NCBI GenBank assembly: GCA_003284215.1
Contig: QBVW01000008.1
Span: 1 to 62,590 of the forward strand
Reading direction: 5' to 3'
Length of the DNA stretch: 62,590 nucleotides
Source of the DNA: SAR86 cluster bacterium AG-313-D11
GTDB lineage: Bacteria; Pseudomonadota; Gammaproteobacteria; Magnimaribacterales; D2472
In this document: positions 1-13,544 of the stretch, one piece after another
Numbering within the stretch: position 1 is the stretch's first letter
How the letters are laid out: each line of letters starts with the position of its first letter
Notes under the pieces: generated by a model
Told to the model about the DNA's origin: nothing
Seen by the model: only the letters and a program-made list of their open reading frames with translations
The model's database searches: none
Translations under genes and position numbers: made by a program

Positions 1-503
1 CTAGTGCCCGCCTTTCCTCAAGGTTTAATAAGAATCTTATTAACTTTCTCCCTATTGAAACTAATTCATTAAAAATACTTGGTGCCTGGGCTTATAATCA
101 TAGAGCTGCTAAATTTGGTAATAATGTCAGCGGAAATACTATTGATGCTATAAGTTATTATGAGGAATGGATTGCGATGGATAGCTATCCTTCAATATTT
201 GCTGGAGATCTAAATAACTCAATTATTTGGGATAAAGAAAATAATGCAAATAATTTTGAAAACATTAATTCGGCTTTAGAGAAAGTTAATTTTTCAAGCG
301 CATACCACTCATTCACAAATGAGAAATTTGGAAGTGAAATCAATCCAACCTTCTTTCATACAAAAAATGAAACAAAGAAATACCACATCGATTATGTATT
401 TTCAAAATCTTTAGATGTTGATTCTGTTGAAGTAGGAAAATATGCTGACTGGATTAAGTTAAGCGATCATTGCCCAATTATAATTAAATTTAAAACTATT
501 TAA
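1..503 (+). CDS. Endonuclease/exonuclease/phosphatase-family protein, 5' end outside the window
   Basis: An open frame enters at the left edge (first full codon at base 3) and stops at 501-503. The visible ~166 residues carry the C-terminal signatures of the EEP (DNase I-like) metal-dependent hydrolase fold: GDLN with the metal-binding Asp/Asn, HIDYVF with the His-Asp pair, and the terminal SDHCPI with the catalytic Asp-His. Members cut nucleic acids or phosphoesters; the substrate cannot be told from this fragment. It lies just outside the direct repeat that bounds the tRNA-Glu island, next to a cluster of integrase-like motif repeats, so it may itself belong to a second mobile element. I see no internal break; it is partial only because the window starts here. 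Confidence 0.8.
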   Translation, partial: SARLSSRFNKNLINFLPIETNSLKILGAWAYNHRAAKFGNNVSGNTIDAISYYEEWIAMDSYPSIFAGDLNNSIIWDKENNANNFENINSALEKVNFSSAYHSFTNEKFGSEINPTFFHTKNETKKYHIDYVFSKSLDVDSVEVGKYADWIKLSDHCPIIIKFKTI

Positions 504-516
504 CTCGCCTTCTCTG

Positions 517-624
517 TGGCTACAAATCGTACTCCGTGGCTACATTATGGCTACAAATATGGCTACATTTAAAAACGAACTTACAGCTTTTCAAGCCAAT
601 TCTCATGGCTACATGGTGGCTATA
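517..624 (+). repeat. Cluster of six TGGCTACA-type octamers
   Basis: The octamer TGGCTACA occurs at 517, 537, 548, 560 and 606, with a one-mismatch copy (TGGCTATA) at 617. All are in the same orientation, with start-to-start spacings of 20, 11, 12, 46 and 11 bp. The cluster lies between a gene end and the left direct repeat of the island, about 50 bp from that repeat. Short repeated sites next to a tRNA-derived att core are typical of arm-type binding sites for a tyrosine integrase; that function is inferred from position and spacing only. Confidence 0.6.
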
Positions 625-641
625 TTTGTTTTTTTTGATGC

Positions 642-672
642 CCTGAAATCCCCTATTTAAAGGGGTTTCAGG
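642..672. repeat. Imperfect inverted repeat beside the left att repeat
   Basis: Bases 642-653 and 662-672 are complementary over 11 pairs with one bulged base and an 8-base AT loop. The hairpin ends one base before the 22-bp direct repeat. Neither strand has a U-tract after the stem, so it is not a standard terminator. It could be a recombinase- or excisionase-binding structure, but nothing in the sequence proves this. Confidence 0.4.
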
Positions 673-673
673 T

Positions 674-695
674 GAAATTGGCATCCCGTAGGGGA
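674..695 (+). repeat. Left att-like direct repeat (copy of the tRNA-Glu 3' end)
   Basis: These 22 bases are identical to 9076-9097, where 17 of them form the 3' end (including CCA) of the intact tRNA-Glu gene. The match stops sharply on both sides. A duplicated tRNA 3' end flanking a block of accessory genes is the standard footprint of a tyrosine-integrase element inserted in a tRNA gene. The two copies enclose about 8.4 kb. Confidence 0.85.
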
Positions 696-696
696 A

Positions 697-849
697 GCGA
701 TCTTTGATAGAGCCAATGTAGAAGAAAGAATCGCTGCTAGATTAGTTGGACATTCAACTGTTGGAGCAACAATGACATATGGCTACTACTCTGAAGGAGA
801 TGATTTTCAAACAGCTCTTAAAACAATTAATAAATTACCTACCCTATAG
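697..849 (+). pseudogene. Truncated tyrosine recombinase (integrase), C-terminal remnant
   Basis: The frame ending in TAG at 847-849 reads ...EERIAARLVGHSTVG, then MTYGYYS and a short tail. This is the end of a phage-type integrase, with the LxGH box and the nucleophilic Tyr in the YGYYS stretch. The N-terminal and core domains, including the catalytic Arg and the HxxR box, are missing. Upstream the frame runs straight into the att repeat and meets a stop at 673-675. The break therefore coincides with the att core, which suggests loss by recombination at att. It is the only recombinase trace in the island, so the island is probably no longer self-mobile. Confidence 0.8.
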
Positions 850-864
850 GAGGATGTTTTTCAT
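848..864 (-). pseudogene. Orphan 5' end of a deleted exported-protein gene
   Basis: On the minus strand 864-848 is identical to the first 17 bases of the gene starting at 5766 (ATG, then MKNILL) and then runs into TAG after six codons. The ATG overlaps the stop of the gene at 864-1754 as TAATG, exactly as the gene starting at 6257 overlaps its upstream neighbour. The simplest reading is that a further signal-peptide gene once followed and was cut off by the deletion that also placed the integrase remnant here. Confidence 0.6.
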
Positions 865-1754
865 TAGCAGTTAGGTCTACAGTTTCTGAAGATATCATTT
901 TTTTGATTTGCTTTCAGTTCGTTGATTTGTCTTTGCTGTTGCATGTCTCTTTGAAAAGCTGGGTCTGCTAAGTTTTCAGCAACTCCAATTGCTACATCCC
1001 CTAAAAACTTAACTAAGAAAGGTAAGTCTTCTTCCTCTTGAACAGGCTCAGTTACATTCTGAGCATAGCTTCTCTGCAGTTCAAGTCTTTGCAAGGCTAA
1101 CTCTTTATCGTGCTGGGCTTCTCTTTGGATACAAGCATTGATGTTTGATTCACCTGAAAAGCCATACTCTTCACAGCGTTGGGTGAGACCAATAATAATA
1201 TTTTGTTTTCTTCTTTTTGTTTCTTCTTCTTCTCTTTTTCTAGTAGCTATTTTAGTTTGTCGGTTAATTTCTTTTGTTCGTTTATTTTGAGCTTGACGCA
1301 ATTCATAATCTTCTAAATTTCTATAGATTATTTGAGTTGGACCATCACCCCCCTTTAACGAAATCACACATTCACTTTGGTATAAAAGCTCACAGTTAAG
1401 TCTTGCTAGTTCAACAGCAGAATACTTATATTTTTTCGTTTGAAAGCCAAATGGTATGTTGCCTATATGAAATTTTTTGCCAGTCTTAAGATTCATTGCT
1501 TCTGCAAAAGTCCAAGGTTCACCAGTCTTTAAATCATTTACATTTTTAACAACTCTGCTTTCTAGGTATTCATACTCCAAATCTTTGCTAGATTTAAGAG
1601 ACTCAATATCTTGTAAGGAATATTGTTCAGGATAGCTCATAGCCAAAACATCAACTTCATCAGAAACTTCTGCTATAAAATTCCCGGTAAAAAGTACACT
1701 AGCACAACCAACAATTCCAAAGACCATCAAAACTAAAGCAAGGGTGTTTCTCAT
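864..1754 (-). CDS. Lipoprotein with shared leader cassette, coiled-coil and Cys-rich tail
   Basis: The 296-residue product begins with MRNTLALVLMVFGIVGCA, a lipoprotein signal with the lipobox IVGC and lipidated Cys17. The first 54 bases are nearly identical to those of three other genes in this island. The middle (about 150-190) is a highly charged Lys/Arg/Glu helix. It is followed by CEEYGFSGESNINACIQRE, a paired-Cys motif resembling one I recall from other proteobacterial envelope proteins. The protein ends in CRPNC. The start overlaps the stop of the upstream gene (ATGA), implying coupled translation. Function unknown; it should sit in the envelope, anchored by lipid. Confidence 0.75.
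   Translation of the reverse strand: MRNTLALVLMVFGIVGCASVLFTGNFIAEVSDEVDVLAMSYPEQYSLQDIESLKSSKDLEYEYLESRVVKNVNDLKTGEPWTFAEAMNLKTGKKFHIGNIPFGFQTKKYKYSAVELARLNCELLYQSECVISLKGGDGPTQIIYRNLEDYELRQAQNKRTKEINRQTKIATRKREEEETKRRKQNIIIGLTQRCEEYGFSGESNINACIQREAQHDKELALQRLELQRSYAQNVTEPVQEEEDLPFLVKFLGDVAIGVAENLADPAFQRDMQQQRQINELKANQKNDIFRNCRPNC
1701..1754 (-). repeat. Leader cassette copy 1
   Basis: 54-bp signal-peptide-coding unit, one base different from the copies at 2984-3037 and 5136-5189 (Lys2 changed to Arg). Similarity ends right after the codons for Cys17-Ala18. Confidence 0.9.
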
Positions 1755-3037
1755 GAATCAAATATAGCTCTATCTACATCTTCCCAAAACCAGAGCAGGA
1801 TAGAAGCAGCTCTTTTATTTTTTTTGCATGATGATAATGCTTTGTTATATCTCTTTGAACGAGAGGAGTAGCTACTCTTTACAGAACGAGGAGAAGAAGC
1901 AATAGGTTTTGAAGGTCTATTTGGTAAATCGCAACTTGACCAACTTTCTTTAATTAAAAAAAGAGGTAGAGCTATTTGGACTATTTGTTTAGCAGCTTCC
2001 ATATTAGTTTGATTTGAATATCTTGGTTTAAATTCATTTAAAATCTGCTCATCAGTTAGTGAGACTCCATCACGCATAACATCAAAAACCTTTGTATATT
2101 CAGTATTAATAAAAATGGTTGGGGCTATGCTTCTTTCGCCTAAGTTAGTTGATGTGGGAGTAAATTCATACATCATATAATCATAATAACTAAAGAAATA
2201 TCTTCCTCCTTCTCCAAGTCCTCTTCCCTCTGACCACTTGCTTGGCTTGATATAGAAGCCAGTATTTGTAAAAGCAATTCCCTCACAGCCATTTCGTGCA
2301 AAAAGGGTTAAGTCAATGTAGGCAAGAAATTTTTCAGTATCAGCTATTTTGTTACATTTCCTAAAATTATCTTCTTTTCTTTGAGAGATGTTGGGAAACA
2401 CAGTCAGCAAATCAGAGTTTGACTCATCAATTAACTCAAAAAACTTTTTTGGGATAGTTTTGTTGGCTTGATAAACCATCTTAGTATATTTTCTTGGATT
2501 GTAACGATGCTCATCTCTGCCCTCTAAAAAAATCTTTTTCATTCTAGTTGCAAAATTTCCAAATACACCAGAAGCAAGGAGAACTTTTCGCGAACCATTG
2601 TTGATAAGAATTTTTAATTCGTAATCATTAATAATGTTAAAGGTCGTATTGTTAGAAAGTAGTTCTTCATAGGAGATGTAATTCTTTCTTGGCATGTTTT
2701 TATTTTGTCCTTTTCCATCAACAGCATTATTAATAAAAATACCAAATTCAGAAAATGCTATTCCTGTGCATCCAGTAGGAACCCAACTAGCTGTAACGAT
2801 TTGAACATGGATGTCGGTTAAGACATCTAACCCCATACATTCTTTAAATTTATCTACTTTGTCGAGATTTAAGAATAGCTTGTCATGGAGAAACCAATCA
2901 TCTTTTAAGGCATCCTCGTAGTAATGAAACCCCCTTAATGACTCTAGATTTTCATCATATACAAATGGTTCTTTAGGAACAGAAGCACAACCAACAATTC
3001 CAAAGACCATCAAAACTAAAGCAAGGGTGTTTTTCAT
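1751..3037 (-). CDS. Lipoprotein with internally duplicated domain
   Basis: The 428-residue product starts with MKNTLALVLMVFGIVGCA (Cys17 lipidation). The mature part contains two related modules, about residues 63-155 and 224-320. Each has an early Cys, then GC-x-GIAF followed by a G-[IF]-[FY]-I strand (92-102 and 253-263), then a YISYEEL or FFSYYDY stretch. This is an ancient tandem duplication. The C-terminus (about 375-410) is Ser/Lys/Arg-rich. I do not recognise the family, although the GIAF-type strand pairs recall PH-like beta domains. Start and stop overlap both neighbours by ATGA, so it is part of a coupled array. Confidence 0.75.
   Translation of the reverse strand: MKNTLALVLMVFGIVGCASVPKEPFVYDENLESLRGFHYYEDALKDDWFLHDKLFLNLDKVDKFKECMGLDVLTDIHVQIVTASWVPTGCTGIAFSEFGIFINNAVDGKGQNKNMPRKNYISYEELLSNNTTFNIINDYELKILINNGSRKVLLASGVFGNFATRMKKIFLEGRDEHRYNPRKYTKMVYQANKTIPKKFFELIDESNSDLLTVFPNISQRKEDNFRKCNKIADTEKFLAYIDLTLFARNGCEGIAFTNTGFYIKPSKWSEGRGLGEGGRYFFSYYDYMMYEFTPTSTNLGERSIAPTIFINTEYTKVFDVMRDGVSLTDEQILNEFKPRYSNQTNMEAAKQIVQIALPLFLIKESWSSCDLPNRPSKPIASSPRSVKSSYSSRSKRYNKALSSCKKNKRAASILLWFWEDVDRAIFDS
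2984..3037 (-). repeat. Leader cassette copy 2
   Basis: 54-bp signal-peptide unit identical to the copy at 5136-5189. The codons after Ala18 are unrelated to those of the other copies. Confidence 0.9.
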
Positions 3038-3384
3038 TCCATCTCCTCAAGTTGATAATTGAATAGCTCATTTTTTGAAAACTCATAAACCTCTGCCAAA
3101 AATCTATTCATCTCTACCTCTGCTTTACTGAGTAAGTTGAGCAGTTCATTTAATTTTGTATCTTCACCATATTTTGATTTGTATTCAATTAAGGTTAAAA
3201 AACATTGGCTTCGTTGAGCTTCATATAATTTAATAGCATTTGTAAATTGTTTTTTTAAATGGATATATTTGAGATTACTGTCTTCTGCCCAAGAAGCTAG
3301 TTTATTAATTGCTGCAGTTGTTTCCATTAGCTCCATAAAAATTTTTTGGTATTCTTCTAAATCCAGTCTTTTAGCAGTTTCCAT
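3034..3384 (-). CDS. Small helical cytoplasmic protein
   Basis: 116 residues, no signal peptide or membrane segment. Charged and predicted mostly alpha-helical, with heptad-like stretches (about 5-60 and 75-105), so a coiled-coil or adaptor protein is likely. It lies between the gene starting at 4153 and the lipoprotein gene starting at 3037, whose ATG overlaps its stop. No family recognised. Its presence inside the exported-protein array makes a role with those neighbours possible but unproven. Confidence 0.55.
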   Translation of the reverse strand: METAKRLDLEEYQKIFMELMETTAAINKLASWAEDSNLKYIHLKKQFTNAIKLYEAQRSQCFLTLIEYKSKYGEDTKLNELLNLLSKAEVEMNRFLAEVYEFSKNELFNYQLEEME

Positions 3385-3409
3385 TAATAAAACATAAGAA
3401 GAATGTTCT

Positions 3410-4153
3410 TCATTTAACTATCCTCAATTTTGGTCTTACATATTTTTTATAAGACCAGAGCAGATGATTCATTCTTTCGGAACATTGGTTCTGTGAGGAA
3501 ATTGCATTATTGGTAATGGATAGACCTGAAGCAATTTGGTATGGAGCATAATTACTTTCAAAAGAGATTCTCTGAACATCATTTAATCCAAAAGGTTGAA
3601 TCCAGTCAGCTTGAACAATGTTAAAAAAACGTGAGGTGAAATCTTTAATCGAAGGTTTATAAAGTTTTTTAGAAGGATTATCCAAACATTTAAAAGGCAC
3701 TGCATTTACAAAAGCAACATCATCAATGGTTAAGTCTGTTTCTTTAAAAAAATGATTGAGGTAACTGCTACAACTTGAATTTAATATATGTTCTTTGTAG
3801 CTGTCTGCGTATTGTCTATATGCAGACTCTAAGTTCGAAGCACTATTTTTAAATTGCACAAAAGACTCATATAAATTTGCATACAACTCATCGTCTTCGT
3901 TGGTTGAGTCAATCTCTGCACGAGAAACAAATACAATTTGGGTGCTGTGATTGGAATAGTTAGTTCCTATATAACCAATAAATGGCATCTCATCAATCTT
4001 ACCTAACCTTGTAGAGAACTTATCAAGCAGGTGTTTTGTTTTGCCTTTCTCCTGATATGTCGAGTTATAGATTTCTTCTTTGCTAATAAAACAAAGCTTA
4101 TGAAGCTCTTTAAAGTCTATCTTGGTAGGTTCTTTTTTAATGAGCTTGTGCAT
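3410..4153 (-). CDS. Cytoplasmic protein with possible uracil-DNA-glycosylase-like fold
   Basis: 247 residues, no signal peptide. The order of motifs recalls the UDG superfamily: an early strand IVFVSRAE where UDGs have the catalytic GxxPG loop, then FVNAVPFKC (compare the TNAVKC-type stretch of family 4/5 UDGs), then a helix and WIQPFG where UDGs have P-x-x-x-x-x-LG. The catalytic loop itself is not conserved and there is no clear C-terminal HPS box. This is at best a remote or non-catalytic relative. It is the only non-exported, enzyme-sized gene among the minus-strand genes of the island. Confidence 0.5.
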   Translation of the reverse strand: MHKLIKKEPTKIDFKELHKLCFISKEEIYNSTYQEKGKTKHLLDKFSTRLGKIDEMPFIGYIGTNYSNHSTQIVFVSRAEIDSTNEDDELYANLYESFVQFKNSASNLESAYRQYADSYKEHILNSSCSSYLNHFFKETDLTIDDVAFVNAVPFKCLDNPSKKLYKPSIKDFTSRFFNIVQADWIQPFGLNDVQRISFESNYAPYQIASGLSITNNAISSQNQCSERMNHLLWSYKKYVRPKLRIVK

Positions 4154-4154
4154 C

Positions 4155-4664
4155 TTATTTAATTTGATTTAATAATTTCTGAGTTTTTTTTAAAGTTTCT
4201 TGGTTTGATTTAAAAGTTTCAATTTCATCTTCGAATGTTTTCTTGGAAACTTTCACACAATGAGAAAAATATTCACTATCGATATCTTGGCTATAGTAAC
4301 CACTAATAATTAATGTCGTTTTATTTAAAAAATGTAAATCCCACTCAATTTCATTTAGAGGTGTTAAATGATTGTTGTAGATTCGACTAAATTGAACTCC
4401 CTCGTAGCTATCCTCTCTTGCGAAATAGTGGAATGGACCATTAATTGAATACACTTTCCTACTTGCATCGATAGCTGTGTTGAATTTTTTTAACTTGGTT
4501 ATATTTTTTTTAGTGGGGCTTTCAAATCTATAGAATTGTTTTGCCGAAGAAGTGTAGTCATACCGACCAACTCCTCTTTCAGATGGCAAAGGAATACATT
4601 GAAGGAAAACTTCTTCAGCAAATGCCAAAGGCGATAAGAGTAATAGGGCTAATAGTTTCTTCAT
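4155..4664 (-). CDS. Secreted/periplasmic protein
   Basis: 169 residues beginning MKKLLALLLLSPLAFA, a Sec signal peptide with an AFA cleavage site, so signal peptidase I rather than lipidation. The mature part has two Cys (LQCIP and SHCVKV) that could form a disulfide, and an amphipathic, Lys/Gln-rich C-terminal helix. It starts 3 bases after the neighbouring stop region and ends 1 base before the next start. Its leader DNA differs from the repeated cassette. No family recognised. Confidence 0.6.
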   Translation of the reverse strand: MKKLLALLLLSPLAFAEEVFLQCIPLPSERGVGRYDYTSSAKQFYRFESPTKKNITKLKKFNTAIDASRKVYSINGPFHYFAREDSYEGVQFSRIYNNHLTPLNEIEWDLHFLNKTTLIISGYYSQDIDSEYFSHCVKVSKKTFEDEIETFKSNQETLKKTQKLLNQIK

Positions 4665-4667
4665 AGC

Positions 4668-5189
4668 TTAAGACTCCATAGGTCTAAGGTGTGTTGTGCC
4701 TTTGATATTGAATGTATTTGTAGTAACTGTTCCACAAGAATCAGTGGTTCTAATTTTTAATTGGTCATACCTATTTAATAGTTGATTAAATTGATTCTCA
4801 CCACTGCCAAGATTGGTACGACCAAGCACTTTGTTGTTAGAAGATACTGTTAAAAAGGGTTCTTGACGTAGTGCTTCTTTACCATCTTTATAAAAAATCA
4901 TCTTAGCTCTTAAACTGGAGTTAAGGGCACAGATATAACTATCACCAGTAACATATTCAAATTGACTTTGATTCGTATTGGCTGAAGTAATAATTCGCAT
5001 GTATGCAATGTTATCTGTTGATTGGACTAAGCTTAATAAGAAATCGCCATTAAACTCATCAGTAGATGTTGAGTAATGCCAATCTCCATATTTAGTATTT
5101 GGGTCTCTGAAATCTACAAGCAATGGAGGATTAATAGCACAACCAACAATTCCAAAGACCATCAAAACTAAAGCAAGGGTGTTTTTCAT
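4668..5189 (-). CDS. Lipoprotein with shared leader cassette
   Basis: I place the start at 5189, because an upstream in-frame ATG at 5240 would add 17 residues before the signal peptide and overlap the upstream gene. From 5189 the product is 173 residues, MKNTLALVLMVFGIVGCA then INPPLL, lipidated at Cys17. The mature part looks beta-rich, with two Cys (YICAL, TDSCGT) and a final FNIKG strand. The start lies 1 base after the upstream stop. Function unknown. Confidence 0.75.
   Translation of the reverse strand: MKNTLALVLMVFGIVGCAINPPLLVDFRDPNTKYGDWHYSTSTDEFNGDFLLSLVQSTDNIAYMRIITSANTNQSQFEYVTGDSYICALNSSLRAKMIFYKDGKEALRQEPFLTVSSNNKVLGRTNLGSGENQFNQLLNRYDQLKIRTTDSCGTVTTNTFNIKGTTHLRPMES
5136..5189 (-). 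repeat. Leader cassette copy 3
   Basis: 54-bp signal-peptide unit identical to the copy at 2984-3037, including all third-codon positions. Confidence 0.9.
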
Positions 5190-5190
5190 A

Positions 5191-5766
5191 TTAGAACTTA
5201 GATTTCGAAGGGTCATATGAGTCACAATTCCCTTTTCCAATTCGCTTTACGATTGCATAATTGCCAATATTCATTCCTCTCGTTTTTCCTGTTATCTCAT
5301 ACTTATATCTCTTTACTAGGTTCATTATCCCATTCAGTCTGTTTATGCTGACTAATCCAGAGACTTCTGTTAATTCAAAAGAATTTTCTAATACATCTGT
5401 AGGAGTGAATGAGTATTCTATTTGACTATCAGTCATATTAAATTTTTCTGCCACTCCTGGTCGAGGTATCCACTTAGAGGTATCTGGATTTAATATAGCT
5501 ATTAACTTTAAAGATTCATCTTTGCTAAAAAAAAGATAGGAGTTAAATGCAAAATATGAAGTAAAAATCCCTTCAGGAACAGTATCGTTTGTTCCAACAT
5601 CATCTGTAATATTTCTTGATTGGTCGAAAACACATTCAATATGATTTAGCTCTTGTAATATCTCAATATCCTCATTAAGTTCATCATCTAATTCAGACCA
5701 AGATTTAGGCTCTGCAAAAGCTCCAAAGCTTCCAAAGACCATCAATGTGAGGAGGATGTTTTTCAT
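5191..5766 (-). CDS. Secreted protein with divergent leader
   Basis: 191 residues. The leader MKNILLTLMVFGSFGAFA is related to the lipoprotein cassette (the VFG core and the DNA over MVFG match) but ends in an AFA signal peptidase I site with no lipobox Cys. Mature motifs include IECVFDQS near the start and VSINRLNG near residue 135, followed by alternating strands. This resembles small exported proteins with an I-[DN]-R-x-x-G motif that I recall from other marine proteobacteria, function unknown. It ends 1 base before the lipoprotein start at 5189. Confidence 0.65.
   Translation of the reverse strand: MKNILLTLMVFGSFGAFAEPKSWSELDDELNEDIEILQELNHIECVFDQSRNITDDVGTNDTVPEGIFTSYFAFNSYLFFSKDESLKLIAILNPDTSKWIPRPGVAEKFNMTDSQIEYSFTPTDVLENSFELTEVSGLVSINRLNGIMNLVKRYKYEITGKTRGMNIGNYAIVKRIGKGNCDSYDPSKSKF
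5713..5766 (-). repeat. Diverged leader cassette (non-lipid version)
   Basis: The first 9 bases and the central block encoding MVFG match the other leaders, while the rest has diverged. The first 17 bases are identical to the orphan start at 848-864, so this version was present at least twice. Confidence 0.6.
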
Positions 5767-6257
5767 AATCTTCTCTCTACCATTACTGGCTCAACAAGCT
5801 CCTTGTATTCTTGATATAGCTCATTTTTAGATATTGATATTGTGAAGCTATTCTTTTTATATTGTGAAATGGGATGTAGCCCTTTTTTTACTTTTTGAAG
5901 GGTTAAAAGAGTGCCGTCTCTCCACCATTTTGATGTTGGTGTTAAAGTATCTGGGTTAATTAGATATCCAGTAACAAATCTATCCGCAACATCTAATTGA
6001 TAATTCCATAAACATTCTTTTCTTCCTTCTGCTATTTGAGCAACAAGCTCTCCATTATGGGCAACGCCACATAGTAAGACTTCTAAACCAATATCTGACG
6101 GGGCGACTGATTCAGTAACTGTAAATACATAGTGGTTACCTTGTGAGTTTCTTATATCCTCAACATCTAACAAAGCGTATTGATTCAACCCTACGGTTGT
6201 TGTAGCACAACCAACAATTCCAAAGACCATCAAAACTAAAGCAAGGGTGTGTTTCAT
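5763..6257 (-). CDS. Lipoprotein with shared leader cassette
   Basis: 164 residues starting MKHTLALVLMVFGIVGCA, lipidated at Cys17. The mature region has two Cys (LLCGVAH, KECLWN) and strand-rich segments ending in a charged C-terminal helix (YKELVEPVMVERRL). Its ATG overlaps the TAA of the upstream gene (TAATG). Its stop overlaps the start of the next gene by 4 bases. No family recognised. Confidence 0.7.
   Translation of the reverse strand: MKHTLALVLMVFGIVGCATTTVGLNQYALLDVEDIRNSQGNHYVFTVTESVAPSDIGLEVLLCGVAHNGELVAQIAEGRKECLWNYQLDVADRFVTGYLINPDTLTPTSKWWRDGTLLTLQKVKKGLHPISQYKKNSFTISISKNELYQEYKELVEPVMVERRL
6204..6257 (-). repeat. Leader cassette copy 4
   Basis: 54-bp signal-peptide unit with one base difference from copies 2 and 3 (Asn3 to His). 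Confidence 0.9.
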
Positions 6258-7513
6258 TAGCAGTTACCCTGTTGATTATTGCACCTTGCTCTTTGGGCAT
6301 TAGCACCTCGTATATAAGCATTATTTATTCTTTGCTGTTCACGCTTAGCTCTCATATGTGCTTCTGGTAAATCAGCTGCTACTTCTGACCAATCAACTGT
6401 TGCTAAGGCAGCTCCAACGATATAAAGAGGTAAAATTGCTAGACCTAAAACAAACTCACCAACGTCTTTAAGAGCCTCATTAGAGTTTTGGAGATTGTTT
6501 GTTTTTATGTACTCAGCTTTTAAGCGTTTTGCAGAACCATCATCAACTAACATTGAGTTTTGAATCTTTGTAATATTTCCATTCAAACTGATAGTTCCAT
6601 CAGTTAATGTTCCATTTGCAAAATTGCCTTCAAAAGTTGTTCCATCAGATTTATAAAAGATTCCTTTGCCATTAGCCTTTCCATCTTTAAGCAATCCCTC
6701 ATACCTTGAACCATCTGCATCAATCAGAAGTGCTTCAGAATTATTCATATCAGCCAAGTTCCCAATATAAAGTGACCCATCTAGGGTATTGCCAAGAGCC
6801 GCATAGACCTCCTTGATATATTCTGTGCTTGATTTAATTAATCGTACCTCACGCCAAAACTTATCGTCAGGTTTTGCCCCATAGCTAATTAGTAATTTAG
6901 ATAATTTAATATTGTCGTGCCTTACACTTACAGTAAGAGAATTCAGACTATTTGTATTTGAATAGTTTGGGTCTGCTCCAGCTTCAAGCAGTGCCTCCGT
7001 GATATTTAGATTGTCATTAAAAACTGACTTAATTAATAATGAATCGGAGGCATCAAATGTGACATTCACGTTTGGTTTATAAGCTAACACTCTTTTTACT
7101 GCACTATCATTGTTCATCAACACCCAATATCCTAATGTTGTCATTTGGGTCTCGGGATTAAAACCTGTTTGTCTTGAGAAGAGACCGCCTGTTTCTTTTG
7201 GAAAGACTGTGTCTATATCTCCTCCAGAGGACATTAGTAAATCTGAAACTAGTCCATCTTCATGCTGGAACGCAGCTATTAATGATGGTGCACACATCAA
7301 ACTAATATCACAATGATACTCTACTGTATTTGGGCTGACTCCACTTTTTAGATACTTCTGAGTATTTTTAAAATCATTTATTTGAACAGCGTGAGACAAC
7401 TTCCGTTCATTTGAGATTAGTGGATTTACATAAACCTGTGCATAAGCATAAGCCGCTGATTGACAGCCAGAGATTCCAAAGACTATCAAAACTAAAGCAA
7501 GGGTGTTTTTCAT
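6257..7513 (-). CDS. Lipoprotein with ankyrin and MORN repeats
   Basis: Start set at 7513 (MKNTLALVLIVFGISGCQ), giving 418 residues; an upstream TTG-type start at 7528 would add five residues before the signal. Cys17 is the lipidation site. Residues about 40-215 form degenerate ankyrin repeats (ALLEAGADPNYSNTNS; KLLISYGAKPDD). Residues about 266-310 hold two MORN-type repeats (GSRYEGLLKDGKANGKG; GTTFEGNFANG). A hydrophobic segment at about 346-366 may insert in the membrane. The tail is Arg/Asn-rich and ends in CNNQQGNC, echoing the CRPNC end of the gene at 864. Ankyrin and MORN modules bind proteins or membranes, so a surface or periplasmic binding role is plausible. Confidence 0.75.
   Translation of the reverse strand: MKNTLALVLIVFGISGCQSAAYAYAQVYVNPLISNERKLSHAVQINDFKNTQKYLKSGVSPNTVEYHCDISLMCAPSLIAAFQHEDGLVSDLLMSSGGDIDTVFPKETGGLFSRQTGFNPETQMTTLGYWVLMNNDSAVKRVLAYKPNVNVTFDASDSLLIKSVFNDNLNITEALLEAGADPNYSNTNSLNSLTVSVRHDNIKLSKLLISYGAKPDDKFWREVRLIKSSTEYIKEVYAALGNTLDGSLYIGNLADMNNSEALLIDADGSRYEGLLKDGKANGKGIFYKSDGTTFEGNFANGTLTDGTISLNGNITKIQNSMLVDDGSAKRLKAEYIKTNNLQNSNEALKDVGEFVLGLAILPLYIVGAALATVDWSEVAADLPEAHMRAKREQQRINNAYIRGANAQRARCNNQQGNC
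7460..7513 (-). repeat. Leader cassette copy 5 (more diverged)
   Basis: Matches copies 2 and 3 through codon 9, then drifts: Met10 to Ile, and IVGCA to ISGCQ. It is the most divergent lipoprotein leader of the set. Confidence 0.8.
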
Positions 7514-7521
7514 AGTTTGAA

Positions 7522-7815
7522 CTACCAATTAAATTGGATTGCAAGAATAAACATAATAAGAAAAAACAGTAATGCAAATGGCAACGCTTTTTGAATAAAC
7601 TCTTTTAAGGTTTTTATAGAAAAAGTTGCGACGGCTGCTGCTGTTTCTTTCCTATCATTAGATTTAAGTTCTGCAACTCTTAACTTGGTGTAATTAACAT
7701 TAGAACTTAATCCATTTTCTTCAGCCATTATCTTAGCTTTAGATAGCATCGCTTCATCTTGGATGCCTGAAGCAATCTCTTTTTCAACTTGTAAATAAAA
7801 ATCTTGGTCTGCCAT
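7522..7815 (-). CDS. Small C-terminally anchored membrane protein
   Basis: 97 residues. The N-terminal ~65 are hydrophilic and helical; a single hydrophobic segment (about 76-95, LPFALLFFLIMFILAIQFNW) lies at the very C-terminus. This is a tail-anchor topology with the soluble part most likely cytoplasmic. Its ATG (7815) shares one base with the upstream gene end, and the lipoprotein start at 7513 follows its stop by 8 bases. No family recognised. Confidence 0.6.
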   Translation of the reverse strand: MADQDFYLQVEKEIASGIQDEAMLSKAKIMAEENGLSSNVNYTKLRVAELKSNDRKETAAAVATFSIKTLKEFIQKALPFALLFFLIMFILAIQFNW

Positions 7816-8252
7816 TATCTATCGTCCGATACACATTCATAAGGTTCAGTATTTTCATCAATCTTATCTTCGCCAACTCTAAAATAACTCTTGGGTTTAA
7901 TTGTTGTTCTCTTCTCTGTTCCCCATGAACCCTTTCTTGAGATGAAAAAATTTCCACTGCGAAGATTTAATTCTGTTTTACCATCTGCTAATTCTTTACT
8001 AGATGAAACTGAGCCACAAAGATAATTCCCGACATAGGTGCCAACTATCTCATCGGTAGGATAATTGTGACTGCCTATCCAATTACAATTTAAGTAGGTA
8101 GTCACTGTTCCCTCAAGCTCAAATTCGTAATAAGACATTCCATCATTTGTTGTTCCTTTTGTGAGCTTATAGCCATTAGTACATTCATAAAATGTTTCTC
8201 TTGCTTCCAGAGATGGAACAAGTAGCAATATTGTTAGTAATAATTTTTTCAT
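7815..8252 (-). CDS. Secreted small Cys-containing protein, first gene of the array
   Basis: 145 residues with a Sec signal, MKKLLLTILLLVPSLEA, and a cut probably after LEA. The mature domain has four Cys (YECTNGY, NCNWIG, NYLCGS, YECVSDD) and alternating strands, suggesting a disulfide-stabilised beta protein. It is the promoter-proximal gene of the minus-strand array; a shared promoter should lie in 8253-8368. No family recognised. Confidence 0.6.
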   Translation of the reverse strand: MKKLLLTILLLVPSLEARETFYECTNGYKLTKGTTNDGMSYYEFELEGTVTTYLNCNWIGSHNYPTDEIVGTYVGNYLCGSVSSSKELADGKTELNLRSGNFFISRKGSWGTEKRTTIKPKSYFRVGEDKIDENTEPYECVSDDR

Positions 8253-8368
8253 ATCTAAATATTAACCTAACTGGTTTACAACAATTACTAATCTTTATAT
8301 TTTTTAATTGTTTAAATTAATCCTAAATGTAGTTTACGAACCATGCAACTTTGCAAGTTTGTTAGGTA

Positions 8369-8788
8369 TTGGATTACTGGTTAACATGGTATGAATCATC
8401 TATGAAAACAGAAGAGGAATGGATACAAGAATCTAACTGGATAAATCTAGTGCATGAGGTATTTAACGATTTCAGATACCGGAACAATAATCCAGATTAC
8501 ACATACGAGTATCATATACGCAGTCCAAGTGATTACACATTACTCTTTAAAGAGAAAGTGTATTTAGGATTATGGACACATGTCTACCGAGCAGATTTTC
8601 GTATGCAACCTAAATATGCTGAAGACAGAGAAACAATAATTGGAGTGTTGTTTTATTATGTGTACGTTAATGTTGGTACTGCTCCAATGACAGATAGGAG
8701 TTCAGATTATTACGAAGACCCAAAAGAATTAATTGAGGAGTTCAAAAAAAACTTTTACTGGCTCCACATCAAAGGGTATTTTGATTGA
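8369..8788 (+). CDS. Hypothetical protein
   Basis: 139 residues from a TTG at 8369, or 128 from the ATG at 8402 (MKTEEEWIQ); neither has a good ribosome-binding site, so the start is open. Soluble, acidic and very rich in aromatic residues (many Tyr/Trp), without signal or membrane segment. It is divergent from the exported-protein array and overlaps the next gene by 4 bases. No family recognised. Confidence 0.5.
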   Translation: MDYWLTWYESSMKTEEEWIQESNWINLVHEVFNDFRYRNNNPDYTYEYHIRSPSDYTLLFKEKVYLGLWTHVYRADFRMQPKYAEDRETIIGVLFYYVYVNVGTAPMTDRSSDYYEDPKELIEEFKKNFYWLHIKGYFD

Positions 8789-9093
8789 GATACTCTGTTC
8801 AGTTCGACCAACACCTAGAATTTAAAACCAATCAATCGCTAGTTGATGATTTAACTCTGGAAGTTTTAGACAGCTTGGCAATGCAACGAACCAATCGCAA
8901 AGCTTACAAAGTAATAGTAGAAAAAGTGGTGATTAATCTCTTCGTTGCGTGGCAGAACAACAAAGATAAAGTAGTTGGTTTCAGCAGACGAAGTAACTTC
9001 TATGATGCCAAGAACCCTATCGACCCACTACCAAAAAAAGAACCCTATAAACGTTATATCTATAGGGTTCTCAAAGAAATTGGCATCCCGTAG
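8785..9093 (+). CDS. Hypothetical protein ending inside the tRNA-Glu att site
   Basis: 102 residues from a TTG at 8785 overlapping the upstream stop. The last codons (KEIGIP, TAG at 9091-9093) are supplied by the 22-bp att repeat and the 3' end of the tRNA-Glu gene on the other strand. Its stop codon is thus host tRNA sequence, which shows the element has been selected, or happens, to read into att. Basic, no signal peptide, no recognised family. Confidence 0.5.
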   Translation: MRYSVQFDQHLEFKTNQSLVDDLTLEVLDSLAMQRTNRKAYKVIVEKVVINLFVAWQNNKDKVVGFSRRSNFYDAKNPIDPLPKKEPYKRYIYRVLKEIGIP

Positions 9094-9097
9094 GGGA
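9076..9097 (+). repeat. Right att-like direct repeat
   Basis: Identical to 674-695. Bases 9081-9097 are the 3' end of tRNA-Glu including CCA. The tRNA is whole on this side, so this is the tRNA-proximal att site and 674-695 is the displaced copy. Confidence 0.85.
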
Positions 9098-9156
9098 GTC
9101 GAACCCCTGTTGCCGAGATGAAAACCCGGTGTCCTAGGCCTCTAGACGAACGGGAC
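9081..9156 (-). tRNA. tRNA-Glu (anticodon TTC)
   Basis: A 76-base cloverleaf with encoded CCA. The acceptor stem GTCCCGT pairs with ACGGGAT, discriminator G73; the anticodon stem CCGGG/CTCGG holds loop TTTTCAT with anticodon TTC; the T arm contains GTTCGAC. It is the insertion target of the island at 674-9097; since the duplicated 3' end restores the gene, it should be functional. Confidence 0.95.
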
Positions 9157-9208: not shown

Positions 9209-9934
9209 CTATTTAATTCTCTTATTTACAGCTTTGAAAAAACCTCTTAAAAAATTACCTTCCATCTTATCTGGGTAAAGCCTGCGAAACATTCTTTCCA
9301 TTCTGGTCATGATCTGTTTTGGATTTTTTGGATCCACAAGCTCCAGAGCTGCAACCGTTTCATTAAAGTGGTCAATTAGGTTGTTTAATTCTTCAGAAGT
9401 GTATTCTGGGAAATCTTGCCAAGACTCGACAGCGCTATTTTGTGCAGCTTGATAAAGTTCGTAACATACTACCTGAGTAGACATGGCAATATTTAAAACT
9501 GGATACTCAGGATGTGCTGGGATAATTAAATGTTTATTAGCCAGTTGTAACTCCTCATTAGTGAGCCCCCTATCCTCTCGACCAAATAATATTGAAACCT
9601 CAATTTCATTTGCAACCAATTCTTGCATCTCTGATGCGGCGTCTTTGGCAGTTAGAGTTGGCCATTCAATTGTTCGATCTCTTGCCGATGTAGCATAGAT
9701 AACTTTTGAACTTTTTACAGCCTCCTGGATTGAGGTAAAGATTTTTGCATTATCTAATACATCGATTGCGTTGCCAGCTAGAGCATTTGCTTCTTCATGT
9801 GGAAATTTTTTTGGATTAATTAAGGCTAAGTTAGCTAAACCCATATTTTTCATAGCACGAGCAACTGAGCCAATGTTGCCTGGATGAGAAGTCTCAACTA
9901 AAACTATTTGCACATATCGATTAATCGGATTCAT
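9209..9934 (-). CDS. trmJ: tRNA (cytidine/uridine-2'-O-)-methyltransferase TrmJ
   Basis: 241 residues, the usual length. TrmJ is a SPOUT-fold dimeric enzyme that 2'-O-methylates position 32 in the anticodon loop of several tRNAs using SAM. Visible motifs: NIGSVARAMKNMG (20-32), LFGREDRGLTNEE (116-128) and YPVLN (144-148), which build the SAM-binding knot; a helical C-terminal extension follows. The start at 9934 is 36 bases from the divergent suhB start, an arrangement often seen in gammaproteobacteria. Confidence 0.93.
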   Translation of the reverse strand: MNPINRYVQIVLVETSHPGNIGSVARAMKNMGLANLALINPKKFPHEEANALAGNAIDVLDNAKIFTSIQEAVKSSKVIYATSARDRTIEWPTLTAKDAASEMQELVANEIEVSILFGREDRGLTNEELQLANKHLIIPAHPEYPVLNIAMSTQVVCYELYQAAQNSAVESWQDFPEYTSEELNNLIDHFNETVAALELVDPKNPKQIMTRMERMFRRLYPDKMEGNFLRGFFKAVNKRIK

Positions 9935-9970
9935 ATAACTATTATCGTCATTTCCAGTACAATATGCGAC

Positions 9971-10771
9971 ATGTCAAAGCCCGCATTACTCAACGTCGCT
10001 ATTATTGCCGCAAATATTGGAGCAGCTGAACTCGAGTTTGCTGTAAAAAAAGTACATAAGCTCAATGTCATGAAAAAAGGCCCTACTGATTATGTAACTG
10101 AGGTTGATAGACGAGTTGAGGAAATAGTCTTTGATAAAATTAAAGAATATTATCCTGATGATAATTTCTTAGGAGAAGAATCTGGGCATGAGGTCAATAC
10201 CTCTGAAACGACATGGATTCTAGATCCCATCGATGGAACAACAAATTTTATCCATGGCTATCCTCAATACTGCATTTCACTTGCATGTGTTGTTAACGGT
10301 CAAACGCAACATGCAGTTATTATTGATCCTACTCGCAGAGAAGAATTTAGCGCATCTAAAGGAAAAGGTGCTGAGTTAAATGGGGAAAGAATAAGGGTCA
10401 GTACTAGAAATGGTTTAAAGGATTCCCTTATAGGAAATACTTCTCATGTTAACGACACACAAGACTATACCTTTGAAAATATTGCAACTTTCAGGACTCT
10501 GTATAAACACAGCTTGACCATCAGAAGATCTGGCTGCTCAGCCTTAGATCTGGCCTATGTTGCTGCAGGAAGATTGGATGGATTCTGGGCCAATGGCCTA
10601 GGGGTTTGGGATATTGCTGCTGGCATGCTAATTGCAGAGGAAGCCGGAGCATTAACAAGTGATTTTTTAGGTAATCCTGATTACAAGAAGAGCGATCATT
10701 ACCTTTGCGCTACTCCAAAATGCTTCAAACAAATGCTTGAAGCCATCAAACCAAATTTCACAGCCCATTAG
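9971..10771 (+). CDS. suhB: Inositol-1-monophosphatase SuhB
   Basis: 266 residues from ATG 9971 (MSKPALLN), preferred over an upstream start at 9908 that would overlap trmJ. Mg-dependent sugar-phosphatase fold: GEESG (68-72), the metal site DPIDGT (85-90) and WDIAAG (213-218). In Escherichia coli SuhB also binds NusA/NusG and aids rRNA antitermination. Its stop is nested with that of convergent secF in four bases (TTAG). Confidence 0.93.
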   Translation: MSKPALLNVAIIAANIGAAELEFAVKKVHKLNVMKKGPTDYVTEVDRRVEEIVFDKIKEYYPDDNFLGEESGHEVNTSETTWILDPIDGTTNFIHGYPQYCISLACVVNGQTQHAVIIDPTRREEFSASKGKGAELNGERIRVSTRNGLKDSLIGNTSHVNDTQDYTFENIATFRTLYKHSLTIRRSGCSALDLAYVAAGRLDGFWANGLGVWDIAAGMLIAEEAGALTSDFLGNPDYKKSDHYLCATPKCFKQMLEAIKPNFTAH

Positions 10772-11682
10772 GGCATATCATCAAACTCTGCGCCCTCTGG
10801 CTCTGGAATAGCCAAATCATCCTGTGTGAGTGACATTCCTAGCAACATATTAGCAACAACGTATATGGATGAGTAGGTTCCAATTAGCACGCCAATAATT
10901 AATGCCTGACTGAAACCTTTGATCATATCCCCGCCAAAGAAAAACAGTGCCAACAATACTAATAAGGTTGTTAATGAGGTAATCAGTGTTCTAGATAGAG
11001 TTTGATTGATAGATCGATTAACAATTTCATGAGGCTCAAACCCCCTCTCGCCTCTAAAATTTTCTCTGATCCTGTCAGAGACGACAATCGTATCATTCAG
11101 AGAATAACCAATCACAGCTAGTAGAGCTGCTAATACAGTCAAATCAAAGTCCCATGAAAATAATGAGAACAACCCAAAAATAATTATGACATCATGCGCA
11201 AGGGCTGCCACTGCGCCGAGCGCAAACTTATATTGAAATCTAAATGCAACATAAAGCAAAATCATGCCCAATGCTACGAGCATCCCTAGGCCACCCTGAT
11301 CTCTGAGCTCAGTGCCTATCTGAGGTCCAACAAATTCGATTCTTTTAAGCTCTGTCAATGGATTAGCATCCTGTAAAAATTTGTAAATCACATCGCCCAA
11401 TTGACTGTTGCCATTCTCATCAGCAACTTTAATTAAAACATCAGAATTTGAGCCAAAATTTACAACTTGGAAATCATCAAATCCATTGTTGGTCATTAGA
11501 TCTCTGATTTCTATGAGGTCAGCTGCCTCTTCATAAGAGACTTCTATAAGAGTCCCACCACTAAAATCTAAGCCTAAGTTAAGGCCTTTAAAACCCAGTG
11601 AACCAATAGATAGAATTAGTAAAACTAAAGAAGCTATCGTTGCATACCTTCGGTAGTTCATGAATGGAATATTAAAGTTCAT
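10768..11682 (-). CDS. secF: Protein translocase subunit SecF
   Basis: 304 residues. Six-helix RND-type membrane protein that, with SecD, uses the proton gradient to pull proteins out on the periplasmic side. Shows TM1 at about 13-30, the GLDFSGGTLIEV start of the first periplasmic domain, and the TM cluster with YSLNDTIVVSDRIRE near residue 200. Its ATG overlaps the secD stop. Last gene of queA-tgt-yajC-secD-secF. Confidence 0.95.
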   Translation of the reverse strand: MNFNIPFMNYRRYATIASLVLLILSIGSLGFKGLNLGLDFSGGTLIEVSYEEAADLIEIRDLMTNNGFDDFQVVNFGSNSDVLIKVADENGNSQLGDVIYKFLQDANPLTELKRIEFVGPQIGTELRDQGGLGMLVALGMILLYVAFRFQYKFALGAVAALAHDVIIIFGLFSLFSWDFDLTVLAALLAVIGYSLNDTIVVSDRIRENFRGERGFEPHEIVNRSINQTLSRTLITSLTTLLVLLALFFFGGDMIKGFSQALIIGVLIGTYSSIYVVANMLLGMSLTQDDLAIPEPEGAEFDDMP

Positions 11683-13544
11683 TAGACTCTCAACTCCTCA
11701 ATATTTTTATTTCCATACATTAAATTAACAATGGCTCTTGTTCCTAAGATCGCAGTAAACATAGAAGTTAAAATACCAATTGATAAGGTGATAGCGAAAC
11801 CTTTGATGGGGCCAGTTCCAATTGCATAAAGGACAATCGATGCTATTAATGTTGTAACATTAGCATCGATAATGGTTACAAATGCTCTTGCGAAACCTTC
11901 TTGAATAGCTGTTTGGGCATCTTTACCCTCTTTGAGCTCTTCTCTGATCCGAGAAAAAATTAACACATTGGCATCAACAGCCATACCTATGGTAAGAACT
12001 ATACCTGCAATTCCAGGTAGAGTAAGGGTTGCTCCTAATAAAGACATAAAGCCTGTAATCAAAATAACATTGGCAAAAAGAGCAATATTTGCAGCAAATC
12101 CAAACCAGCGATAATAAAAAAGCATAAATGCAATCACTGAAAGTAAGCCAATAATTATTGATCGGACTCCTAACTCAATGTTTTCCTTCCCAAGACTTGG
12201 TCCAACTGTTCTTTCTTCAACAAATTTCATTGGAGCCGCCAATGCTCCAGCTCTAAGCAGCAAAGCTAACTCGCTTGCTTCTTGAGGTGAGCCAACTCCT
12301 GTAATTCTAAATGCAGTTCCAAGAACAGCTTGAACAGTAGCAAGACTGATAATCTCTTTTTCAATATAAGAGGTCTGTTCGATAACATCGTTACCATCTG
12401 CATCCTTAGCAAGAACTGATTTATTCTTCTGCTCAACAAAAAGAACGCCTAAACGTCTTCCAATATTTCCATTGGTCGCTTTTTGCATTGCACGCCCACC
12501 TTGCATATCCAAGGTGATATTAACTTGTGCAAATCCACTTTCATCAAAACCAGAACTTGCATTAGTTACTCTTTCTCCAGCAACAATAATATTTTTTTCT
12601 AAAAATGCTGAGCCCATTCGCTCGTCCTGCCAATCAAATTCCTCTTTTCTTAATCTTGATGTTGTTGATGCAGCTTCTAATCTGAATTCTAAATTTGCAG
12701 TTTTTCCAATAATTTTCTTAGCAGCAGTTGTATCTTGAACACCAGGTAATTGAACAACAATTCTGCTGCTGCCTTGACGCTGAACAATCGGCTCACTGAC
12801 TCCAAGCTCATTGACCCTATTTCTCAATGTCATAAGGTTTTGACCCACAGCATAGTCTCTAATCTCTTTAATAGCAGACTGCGAATATGCTAGTTCAACT
12901 AGATTTCTTACAGAGCTGGGTCTTAAATCAAAGAGAGGCGTTCCAAGGGGGGTAATATTATCCTCGCTAAAAATTTTCAGCGCTTTGTTGTAATCCTCAT
13001 CACTTGGAAATGAAAATATTAAGTCTTTATTATCTTTTCTTGAGCTTTCAACATTGATGCGATCGTCTCTAAATTTCTTCCTATATTCATTCAGTAATGA
13101 CTCTAAGCGATTATCTAATGCGCTATCTATATCGACCTCTAAAAGAAAATGCACTCCGCCAGATAAATCTAAGCCTAATTTCAATGGTCCGGCACCTATG
13201 TTTCTGAGCCATTGAGGAGTTGATGGCTCAAGGTTTAATGCAATAATTGCTTCATCTAGTAGAATTTTCTGTAAAGCGGCTTTGCCAGCAAGCTGATCAT
13301 CAAAAGAATTAAACTTTGCAATGATGTTGTTGTCTTTCAGTCCAACTGATTCAACACCAGTAGATTGGTCTTCTAATATGTCTTTAACTTGATTCAATAA
13401 AATTTGATCAGCGGATTTACCTGAATCAGTGTATGCAATCTGAATTGCTGGTTTGGCAGGATATAAATTTGGCAAAGAATAGATTACCCCAATAGACAAC
13501 ACCATCAATATGAATGTATTTGTCCAGATTGAAAATCTATTCAT
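11682..13544 (-). CDS. secD: Protein translocase subunit SecD
   Basis: 620 residues, full length. TM1 at about 7-25, the signature GLDLSGGVHFLLEVD at about 122-136, a large periplasmic P1 domain, and five C-terminal helices from about 455 containing GIVLTIGMAVDANVLIFSRI. Partner of SecF in the SecYEG-linked translocase. Confidence 0.95.
   Translation of the reverse strand: MNRFSIWTNTFILMVLSIGVIYSLPNLYPAKPAIQIAYTDSGKSADQILLNQVKDILEDQSTGVESVGLKDNNIIAKFNSFDDQLAGKAALQKILLDEAIIALNLEPSTPQWLRNIGAGPLKLGLDLSGGVHFLLEVDIDSALDNRLESLLNEYRKKFRDDRINVESSRKDNKDLIFSFPSDEDYNKALKIFSEDNITPLGTPLFDLRPSSVRNLVELAYSQSAIKEIRDYAVGQNLMTLRNRVNELGVSEPIVQRQGSSRIVVQLPGVQDTTAAKKIIGKTANLEFRLEAASTTSRLRKEEFDWQDERMGSAFLEKNIIVAGERVTNASSGFDESGFAQVNITLDMQGGRAMQKATNGNIGRRLGVLFVEQKNKSVLAKDADGNDVIEQTSYIEKEIISLATVQAVLGTAFRITGVGSPQEASELALLLRAGALAAPMKFVEERTVGPSLGKENIELGVRSIIIGLLSVIAFMLFYYRWFGFAANIALFANVILITGFMSLLGATLTLPGIAGIVLTIGMAVDANVLIFSRIREELKEGKDAQTAIQEGFARAFVTIIDANVTTLIASIVLYAIGTGPIKGFAITLSIGILTSMFTAILGTRAIVNLMYGNKNIEELRV

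Follow-up and report, generated by a model that had tools for sequence, protein, structure and literature searches.

How do unrelated exported proteins come to begin with the same DNA? The question is raised by the window analyzed here, a stretch of 62,590 nucleotides (nt) that forms one contig (QBVW01000008.1) of the 1.30-Mb genome of SAR86 cluster bacterium AG-313-D11, which is 75% complete in 22 contigs. In this window, several minus-strand genes open with almost the same signal-peptide DNA (the leader) and then continue into mature proteins (the cargo) without detectable similarity to one another. In what follows, I compare the window genome (G000) with a genus set of 26 genomes and a family set of 107 genomes, and argue that these genes are the cargo operon of a genomic island linked to a transfer RNA (tRNA) gene, tRNA-Glu, in a SAR86-type bacterium, and that recombination and horizontal exchange probably shuffle leaders and cargo among such tRNA-linked elements.

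One leader ahead of unrelated proteins

The four lipoprotein genes starting at 1754, 3037, 5189 and 6257 (minus strand) have 54-nt leaders that differ from each other by 0-2 mismatches, and the consensus of this leader, here called A, finds four matches in the window with at most one mismatch allowed and none in 100 shuffles, so the near-identity reported in the initial annotation stands. Across the four genes, identity is at background level before the ATG (4-14 of 30 positions in the six pairs) and drops just past the Cys-Ala codons that close the signal peptide, with 7-10 of the next 30 positions identical, which is where the similarity had been said to end. The same borders appear when 12 A leaders are pooled across genomes, since mean pairwise identity is 0.24-0.33 before the ATG, 0.88-0.97 from +1 to +36 and about 0.65 for the 12 nt that follow, after which it is 0.45 and falls to about 0.3; 10 leaders of a second type, B, give a profile like that of A. 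The copy at 7513 had been called more diverged, and it does differ from A at 8-9 of 54 positions, yet only one of these lies within the first 36. The leader at 5766 had been taken for a diverged version of the same sequence; it shares the core TTGATGGTCTTTGGA with A and is identical to it at 29/54 positions, and is better described as the separate type B. A third type, C (MKKLLALLLLSPLAFA), opens the gene starting at 4664, recurs in other genomes, and had been overlooked.

Behind these leaders, the seven window mature parts, 146 to 410 amino acids (aa) long, gave no pair at E ≤ 0.01 by blastp or phmmer; they are unrelated at this threshold, as had been claimed, and an alignable paralogous family of exported proteins was accordingly rejected. 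Nor is the leader general to this genome, where a DNA search with leader A returned five matches, all inside the island, and one core exported gene has a leader that shows ordinary divergence between genomes.

A mosaic pool of leaders

By similarity to module sequences, each leader can be assigned a front half (A, B or C) and a back half (x, y, z or c), and the combinations found are A-x, A-y, A-z, B-x, B-y, B-c, C-c and C-x. Because A-x, A-y, B-x and B-y are all present, four-gamete reasoning requires recombination or repeated change inside the leader itself. The back half also suggests the fate of the product: leaders ending in x, read by eye, carry a hydrophobic stretch followed by GIVGC, the lipobox with the Cys at the cleavage site, and fit bacterial lipoprotein signals, so that lipidation is predicted and these proteins should be lipid-anchored, while those exported with y, z or c should be cleaved and periplasmic.

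The pool is wider than one genome. Own genome included, leader A DNA matches 8 of the 26 genus genomes and 9 of the 107 family genomes, leader B 11/26 and leader C 7/26. A true, start-anchored front half A occurs in six genomes (G000, G003, G004, G009, G018 and G022) and on a contig binned as Flavobacteriales; the A matches in G012, G015 and G048, the last from another genus, are B leaders that have the shared core and back half x. Two B matches, in G017 and on contig C17 of G022, were not confirmed as start-anchored leaders. Six named records hold the leader pattern, four of them titled SAR86, one a Proteobacteria metagenome-assembled genome, and one the 3-kb Flavobacteriales contig, which is perhaps misbinned.

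There are also 'empty' leaders (L024 4473, L026 945, L077 8997 and L080 700) that stop after 15-19 codons without cargo, two of which overlap or abut neighboring genes. Separately, L022:1863 and L031:2340 are genes without a signal peptide that begin alike, with MNYCR[AV]DKS[SA]K, and then differ, possibly a start cassette unconnected with export.

Evidence that leaders and cargo were re-paired

Outside the window genome, too, one and the same leader DNA stands ahead of different mature parts, as the initial annotation had anticipated. In all, phmmer at E ≤ 0.01 sorts 37 genes with leaders into 30 mature families, a count that excludes the four short empty leaders, L027 10518 (32 aa) and L078 8860 (front half only), and that leaves L030 15168 and the window gene at 4664 unmerged, this pair reaching E 0.008 by blastp and not 0.01 by phmmer. 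With five homologous genes that have other leaders added, drawn from an all-against-all comparison of 393 frames or from the search with the lipoprotein P1 (Table 1), six of the seven multi-member families occur behind different leaders. P1 has leader A-x in the window and in L026, C-x in L092 and an unrelated leader in L093. The MORN_2 family has B-x in L029 and L077, A-z in L031 and an unrelated leader in L027, where the mature part is 57% identical to that of L029. The NMDN family has A-y in L023 and unrelated leaders in L077 (9862) and L030 (13246); the rhodanese family has B-y in L078 and a mostly different leader in L082; the family of L022 3285 and L083 has B-c and C, respectively; and the DHN family has C-c in L025, B-c in L085 and further leaders in L100, L105 and L107. 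One pair, L024 and L084, is 95% identical and has kept its leader. That leaders and cargo were re-paired is thus well supported.

Of the window cargo, P1 has three homologs in the 107 family genomes, and P2, P6 and P8 have no credible homolog there. A weak match to P2 in G009 (E 4.5e-4) lay within an apparent asparagine synthase gene, named by eye, and was dropped.

Islands at tRNA genes

The window genes are enclosed by two 22-bp repeats of the tRNA-Glu 3' end (Table 1), and five other leader loci also have tRNA-derived repeats around their leader genes: the repeat is 52 bp long at the tRNA-Phe of G048, 21 bp at the tRNA-Glu of G015, and 23, 41 and 47 bp at the tRNA-Ser genes of G009, G022 and G012, respectively. 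The repeat derives from the 3' end of the tRNA gene in four of the six loci and from the 5' part of tRNA-Ser in G022 and G012 (L027, L083). All 18 leader starts listed for these loci lie inside the repeats (seven in the window, two in L023, two in L027, three in L030, three in L077 and one in L083), a count to be read knowing that the loci were fetched for holding a leader and are not an unbiased sample. Direct repeats that copy part of a tRNA gene and flank the element on either side are the arrangement of tRNA-integrating, tycheposon-like elements; those with both ends seen span about 2-9.5 kb, the 9.5-kb element of G048 carries a PF00589 integrase inside its repeats, a PF00589 integrase is also present in G018, where the element ends are not shown, and G012 retains an integrase remnant. 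A 52-aa frame after the distal repeat of the window was considered by eye as the end of an integrase and rejected, since Pfam at E 0.1 gave nothing and phmmer found no match to it in the 393 fetched frames. Two further candidate repeats were also discarded, one in L024 being a run of N and one of 13 bp in L028 being judged too short.

The association with tRNA genes, tRNA-Glu included, therefore extends to other genomes, as had been suggested, and so does variation in presence, here between species. Leaders occur at tRNA-Glu in G000, G004, G015 and G022, with a weaker form in G024. Of 13 further tRNA-Glu loci fetched, nine have 5 kb or more of flanking DNA (G001, G010, G011, G014, G017, G018, G019, G020 and G025) and all nine congeneric loci are without leaders; those in L098, L099, L102 and L103 are too short to judge. 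The window island is accessory.

Several smaller features accompany these loci. A 71-bp stretch upstream of the first leader gene is identical in L030 (16066-16136) and L077 (8551-8621), at different tRNAs and in different genera, and is perhaps a shared promoter. A conserved gene pair, 73-88% identical, is found in the loci of three genomes (L028:4185-5365, L030:2829-4009 and L079:6253-7427), its first gene matching sigma-70 region 2 in L028. A short minus-strand frame beside tRNA-Glu-derived repeats (window 520-684, L028:9209-9361 and L030:12277-12474), 78-85% identical between species, is perhaps conserved element-end DNA and not a gene.

Proposed exchange through the leader and its alternatives

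Identity between G000 and G015 (trmJ, secF) is 0.348 at four-fold sites and 0.487 for codons at conserved residues, and the corresponding values for G022 (trmJ, secF, secD) are 0.386 and 0.497; yet the longest exact leader runs shared with these genomes are 46 and 38 nt. Similar runs join G000 to G009 (42 nt, secF 84%), to G048 of another genus (44 nt, secF 71%) and to the closer G004 (44 nt, four-fold sites 0.656). Leaders are thus far more alike than core synonymous sites, which agrees with the initial annotation.

An exact 20-mer scan of 13 stretches, not all with proven island ends and totaling 52,227 bases, puts leaders at 3.7% of the bases scanned, yet leaders account for 1187 of the 2610 bases lying in exact 20-mers that also occur in another genome; the remaining 1423 include an orthologous gene pair of G003 and G007, DNA near tRNA ends, an upstream region common to G015 and G048, and MORN_2 homologs. 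The leader, at about 36-54 nt, would then be the main DNA that otherwise unrelated cargo genes have in common and hence the likely crossover site, and because it is the main common DNA, an exchange inside it can join new cargo to a start codon, an operon position and an export signal in one step. On this proposal, tRNA-linked mobile elements would bring cargos together, and crossovers may occur when elements meet, by general (RecA) or phage-type annealing recombination, where the enzyme, like the direction of each swap and its rate, is inferred. The shuffling put forward in the initial annotation is in this way supported by the mosaic leaders and the swapped families, and its other suggestion, gene conversion as local homogenization, is not, given that leaders from one locus resemble each other no more than leaders from different loci do (a value as low came up in 444 of 5000 shuffles for A and in 2793 of 5000 for B).

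That absence of within-locus homogenization also counts against exchange through the leader, and it has company. B leaders show a synonymous excess (12 of 19 possible synonymous changes against 13 of 71 nonsynonymous), so some constraint acts on them; no intact integrase is shown in the window; at L029 9809, L078, L082 and L086, leader genes have core-like neighbors and no island end is shown; the family-wide search covered four of the seven window mature parts (P1, P2, P6 and P8); predicted structures of two mature parts had mean predicted local distance difference test (pLDDT) scores of 34.5 and 45.1, unusable for fold comparison; and the leader patterns are absent from the viral contigs searched.

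Among the alternatives, the one that survives best, unlikely as I consider it, is tandem duplication of a single gene for an exported protein, after which the mature part diverged very fast while constraint kept the leader as it was. A constant leader with a fast-diverging mature part is, after all, the pattern of venom-peptide families, and the tandem, same-strand window genes with near-identical leaders, together with the constraint on B, are what such a history would leave. However, it has to accommodate homologous mature parts behind unrelated leaders, swaps that already weaken it, as well as mature parts of such different lengths without detectable similarity; and A leaders lack a synonymous excess (4 of 22 possible synonymous and 15 of 77 possible nonsynonymous changes), their departures tracking opportunity as in recent copying, so protein constraint fails to explain the identity of A.

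Less probable again is that no shuffling took place and that codon, RNA or translation-coupling constraint preserved the leader DNA of genes that had separately gained similar signals. Rare codons, CTC for one, are indeed kept, and the overlap of starts with preceding stops makes translational coupling plausible. Against this, A, B and C accomplish the same task with different DNA, and the chance of all codons matching from codon usage is about 6e-6 over the first 36 nt of A and 2e-7 over those of B. The leader of the core exported gene (26481-27878) serves as a control and diverges normally: it is 79-96% identical in 12 of the 25 other genomes, identical in none, and undetected in 13, including G009, G015 and G022, where for some the gene may be missing through incompleteness.

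A site-specific cassette system, integron- or invertase-like, with the leader as the recombination site, is an improbable reading, a little more so than the last. It would suit the sharp borders at the ATG and the integrases in two elements (G048 and G018), but the shared box is coding sequence and has no counterpart at the far end of the cargo, the elements that carry an integrase have tRNA repeats as their borders where borders are shown, and the 52-kb scan reveals no other element shared between each pair of cargo genes; for an integron-type cargo-end site in particular, the 20-mer scan found no shared sequence, attC structure and integron integrase not having been searched for. Finally, chimeric contigs from assembly or amplification, for which the fragmented and incomplete window genome might be blamed, are hardly credible when the reading frames are unbroken and the leaders are found again in many separate genomes, among them G048, a single 1.33-Mb contig.

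Exchange through the leader thus remains the probable account. A bolder extension, which I hold only tentatively and would sooner doubt than assert, is that SAR86 mobile elements share a leader-exchange system in which export-signal cassettes with interchangeable front and processing-site halves act as standing recombination joints that turn orphan frames into lipoproteins or periplasmic proteins, the empty leaders perhaps being used or waiting sockets.

The operon and its possible role

The minus-strand run (Table 1) is tightly packed, with nine of ten junctions within 8 nt and the tenth at 25 nt; for the six genes named in the initial annotation the gaps between start and stop are -4 to 8 nt, confirming the packing described there. 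The GIAF motif, read from the translation, does occur twice in the 1751-3037 product. The ankyrin and MORN description of P9 is borne out for ankyrin, which is above the Pfam cut-off, and not for MORN, which is below it (19.4 vs 22.5 bits). Outside the repeats, the contig opens (window positions 1-503) with the tail of a gene that resembles the endonuclease/exonuclease/phosphatase family (PF03372, E 0.0019, short of the cut-off).

Table 1. Features of the window's tRNA-Glu-linked island.
Feature	Position	Strand	Remark
Distal direct repeat of tRNA-Glu 3' end (att-like)	674..695		Exact 22-bp match to 9076-9097
Lipoprotein gene P1, coiled-coil-like; leader A-x at 1701-1754	864..1754	-	Mature homologs behind other leaders in G072, G103
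Lipoprotein gene P2, two GIAF motifs; leader A-x at 2984-3037	1751..3037	-	Without credible homolog in 107 family genomes
Operon gene without shared leader	3034..3384	-	No Pfam family above cut-off
Operon gene without shared leader	3410..4153	-	No Pfam match
Exported-protein gene; leader C-c at 4617-4664	4155..4664	-	Leader C recurs in genus
Lipoprotein gene P6; leader A-x at 5136-5189	4668..5189	-	Mature part only in own genome among 107
Exported-protein gene; leader B-y at 5713-5766	5191..5766	-	Leader B recurs in genus
Lipoprotein gene P8; leader A-x at 6204-6257	5763..6257	-	Mature part only in own genome among 107
Lipoprotein gene P9, ankyrin and MORN-like; diverged leader A at 7460-7513	6257..7513	-	Pfam, leader comparison
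Operon gene, small membrane-like protein without shared leader	7522..7815	-	Open reading frame
First gene of minus-strand run; own signal peptide, not a shared type	7815..8252	-	Absent from leader matches
Proximal direct repeat, within and next to tRNA-Glu 3' end	9076..9097		Exact 22-bp match to 674-695
tRNA-Glu(ttc), integration target	9081..9156	-	ARAGORN

What these proteins do can be approached from their sequences. PADLOC gave, for 10 window proteins, a weak BnzA match (E 2.3e-6, in the GIAF region of P2) and one ankyrin-containing model, and no match for 10 proteins from relatives, so that a defence role is suggestive only. Modification genes lie inside the L023 island (12102-13376) and beside the L030 island (9225-11900), and these, with ankyrin, MORN_2 and the BnzA-like GIAF region, are hints of conflict functions and not proof; my guess would be that the proteins modify the envelope or defend the cell against phages or competitors. 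A viral or phage source of leaders or island was considered and rejected, the leaders being missing from viral contigs and none of 50,697 phage records matching the window DNA (700-8690); nor did the viral contigs yield a relative of the large, 465-aa protein encoded in the G048 island. These searches bear on the source of the DNA and not on its transfer.

Significance and comparison with known systems

The window and its relatives offer a sequence-level case in which islands of an uncultured marine group exchange export signals as modules of DNA, with bearing on the origin of orphan surface proteins and on how islands diversify in streamlined genomes. The leader, 36-54 nt long, can serve as a tag for counting leader-cargo pairings in metagenomes, and if the leader-exchange system were true, it would amount to a bacterial route for the birth and turnover of surface proteins. 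In the open-licence literature, the terms used returned no paper on shared leaders in SAR86 islands, nor one on mosaic leader DNA ahead of unrelated, mostly orphan proteins in the tRNA-linked islands of several species from a single marine group.

The SVM proteins of phytoplasma have a conserved signal sequence. Like the SAR86 genes, these proteins and the potential mobile units of phytoplasma involve small secreted proteins in mobile, mosaic gene clusters, but they belong to unrelated bacteria with plant and insect hosts, and the excerpted descriptions contain no tRNA-repeat islands (PMC3743221, PMC9312162). Similar in setting are the tycheposons and other tRNA-flanked flexible islands of marine plankton that carry nutrient and metabolic cargo, which according to the available part of their description (PMC10872708) resemble the SAR86 elements in having a tRNA gene at the border, variable cargo and streamlined marine genomes, and perhaps in a tyrosine recombinase in some members; unlike tycheposons as described there, the SAR86 elements share signal-peptide DNA and carry exported proteins of mostly unknown family. 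Similar in gene design are the spma and vpma lipoproteins of Mycoplasma agalactiae, gene clusters in which a similar N-terminal signal peptide with a conserved lipobox precedes different mature parts; in the accessible portion of that account (PMC2824730), these mature parts share or repeat motifs and vary with polyG tracts, whereas the SAR86 mature parts are unrelated and their leader DNA is mosaic and common to several species; no tract of the phase-variable kind was noticed there, though no search aimed at such tracts or at inverted repeats was made. The idea of one export module ahead of many downstream parts, with recombination proposed, has further counterparts in Schistosoma japonicum genes with a similar signal sequence and in the oomycete Crinklers; both are eukaryotic, and the schistosome case, as its partial text presents it, is one of dispersed duplication near repetitive elements (PMC3434034).

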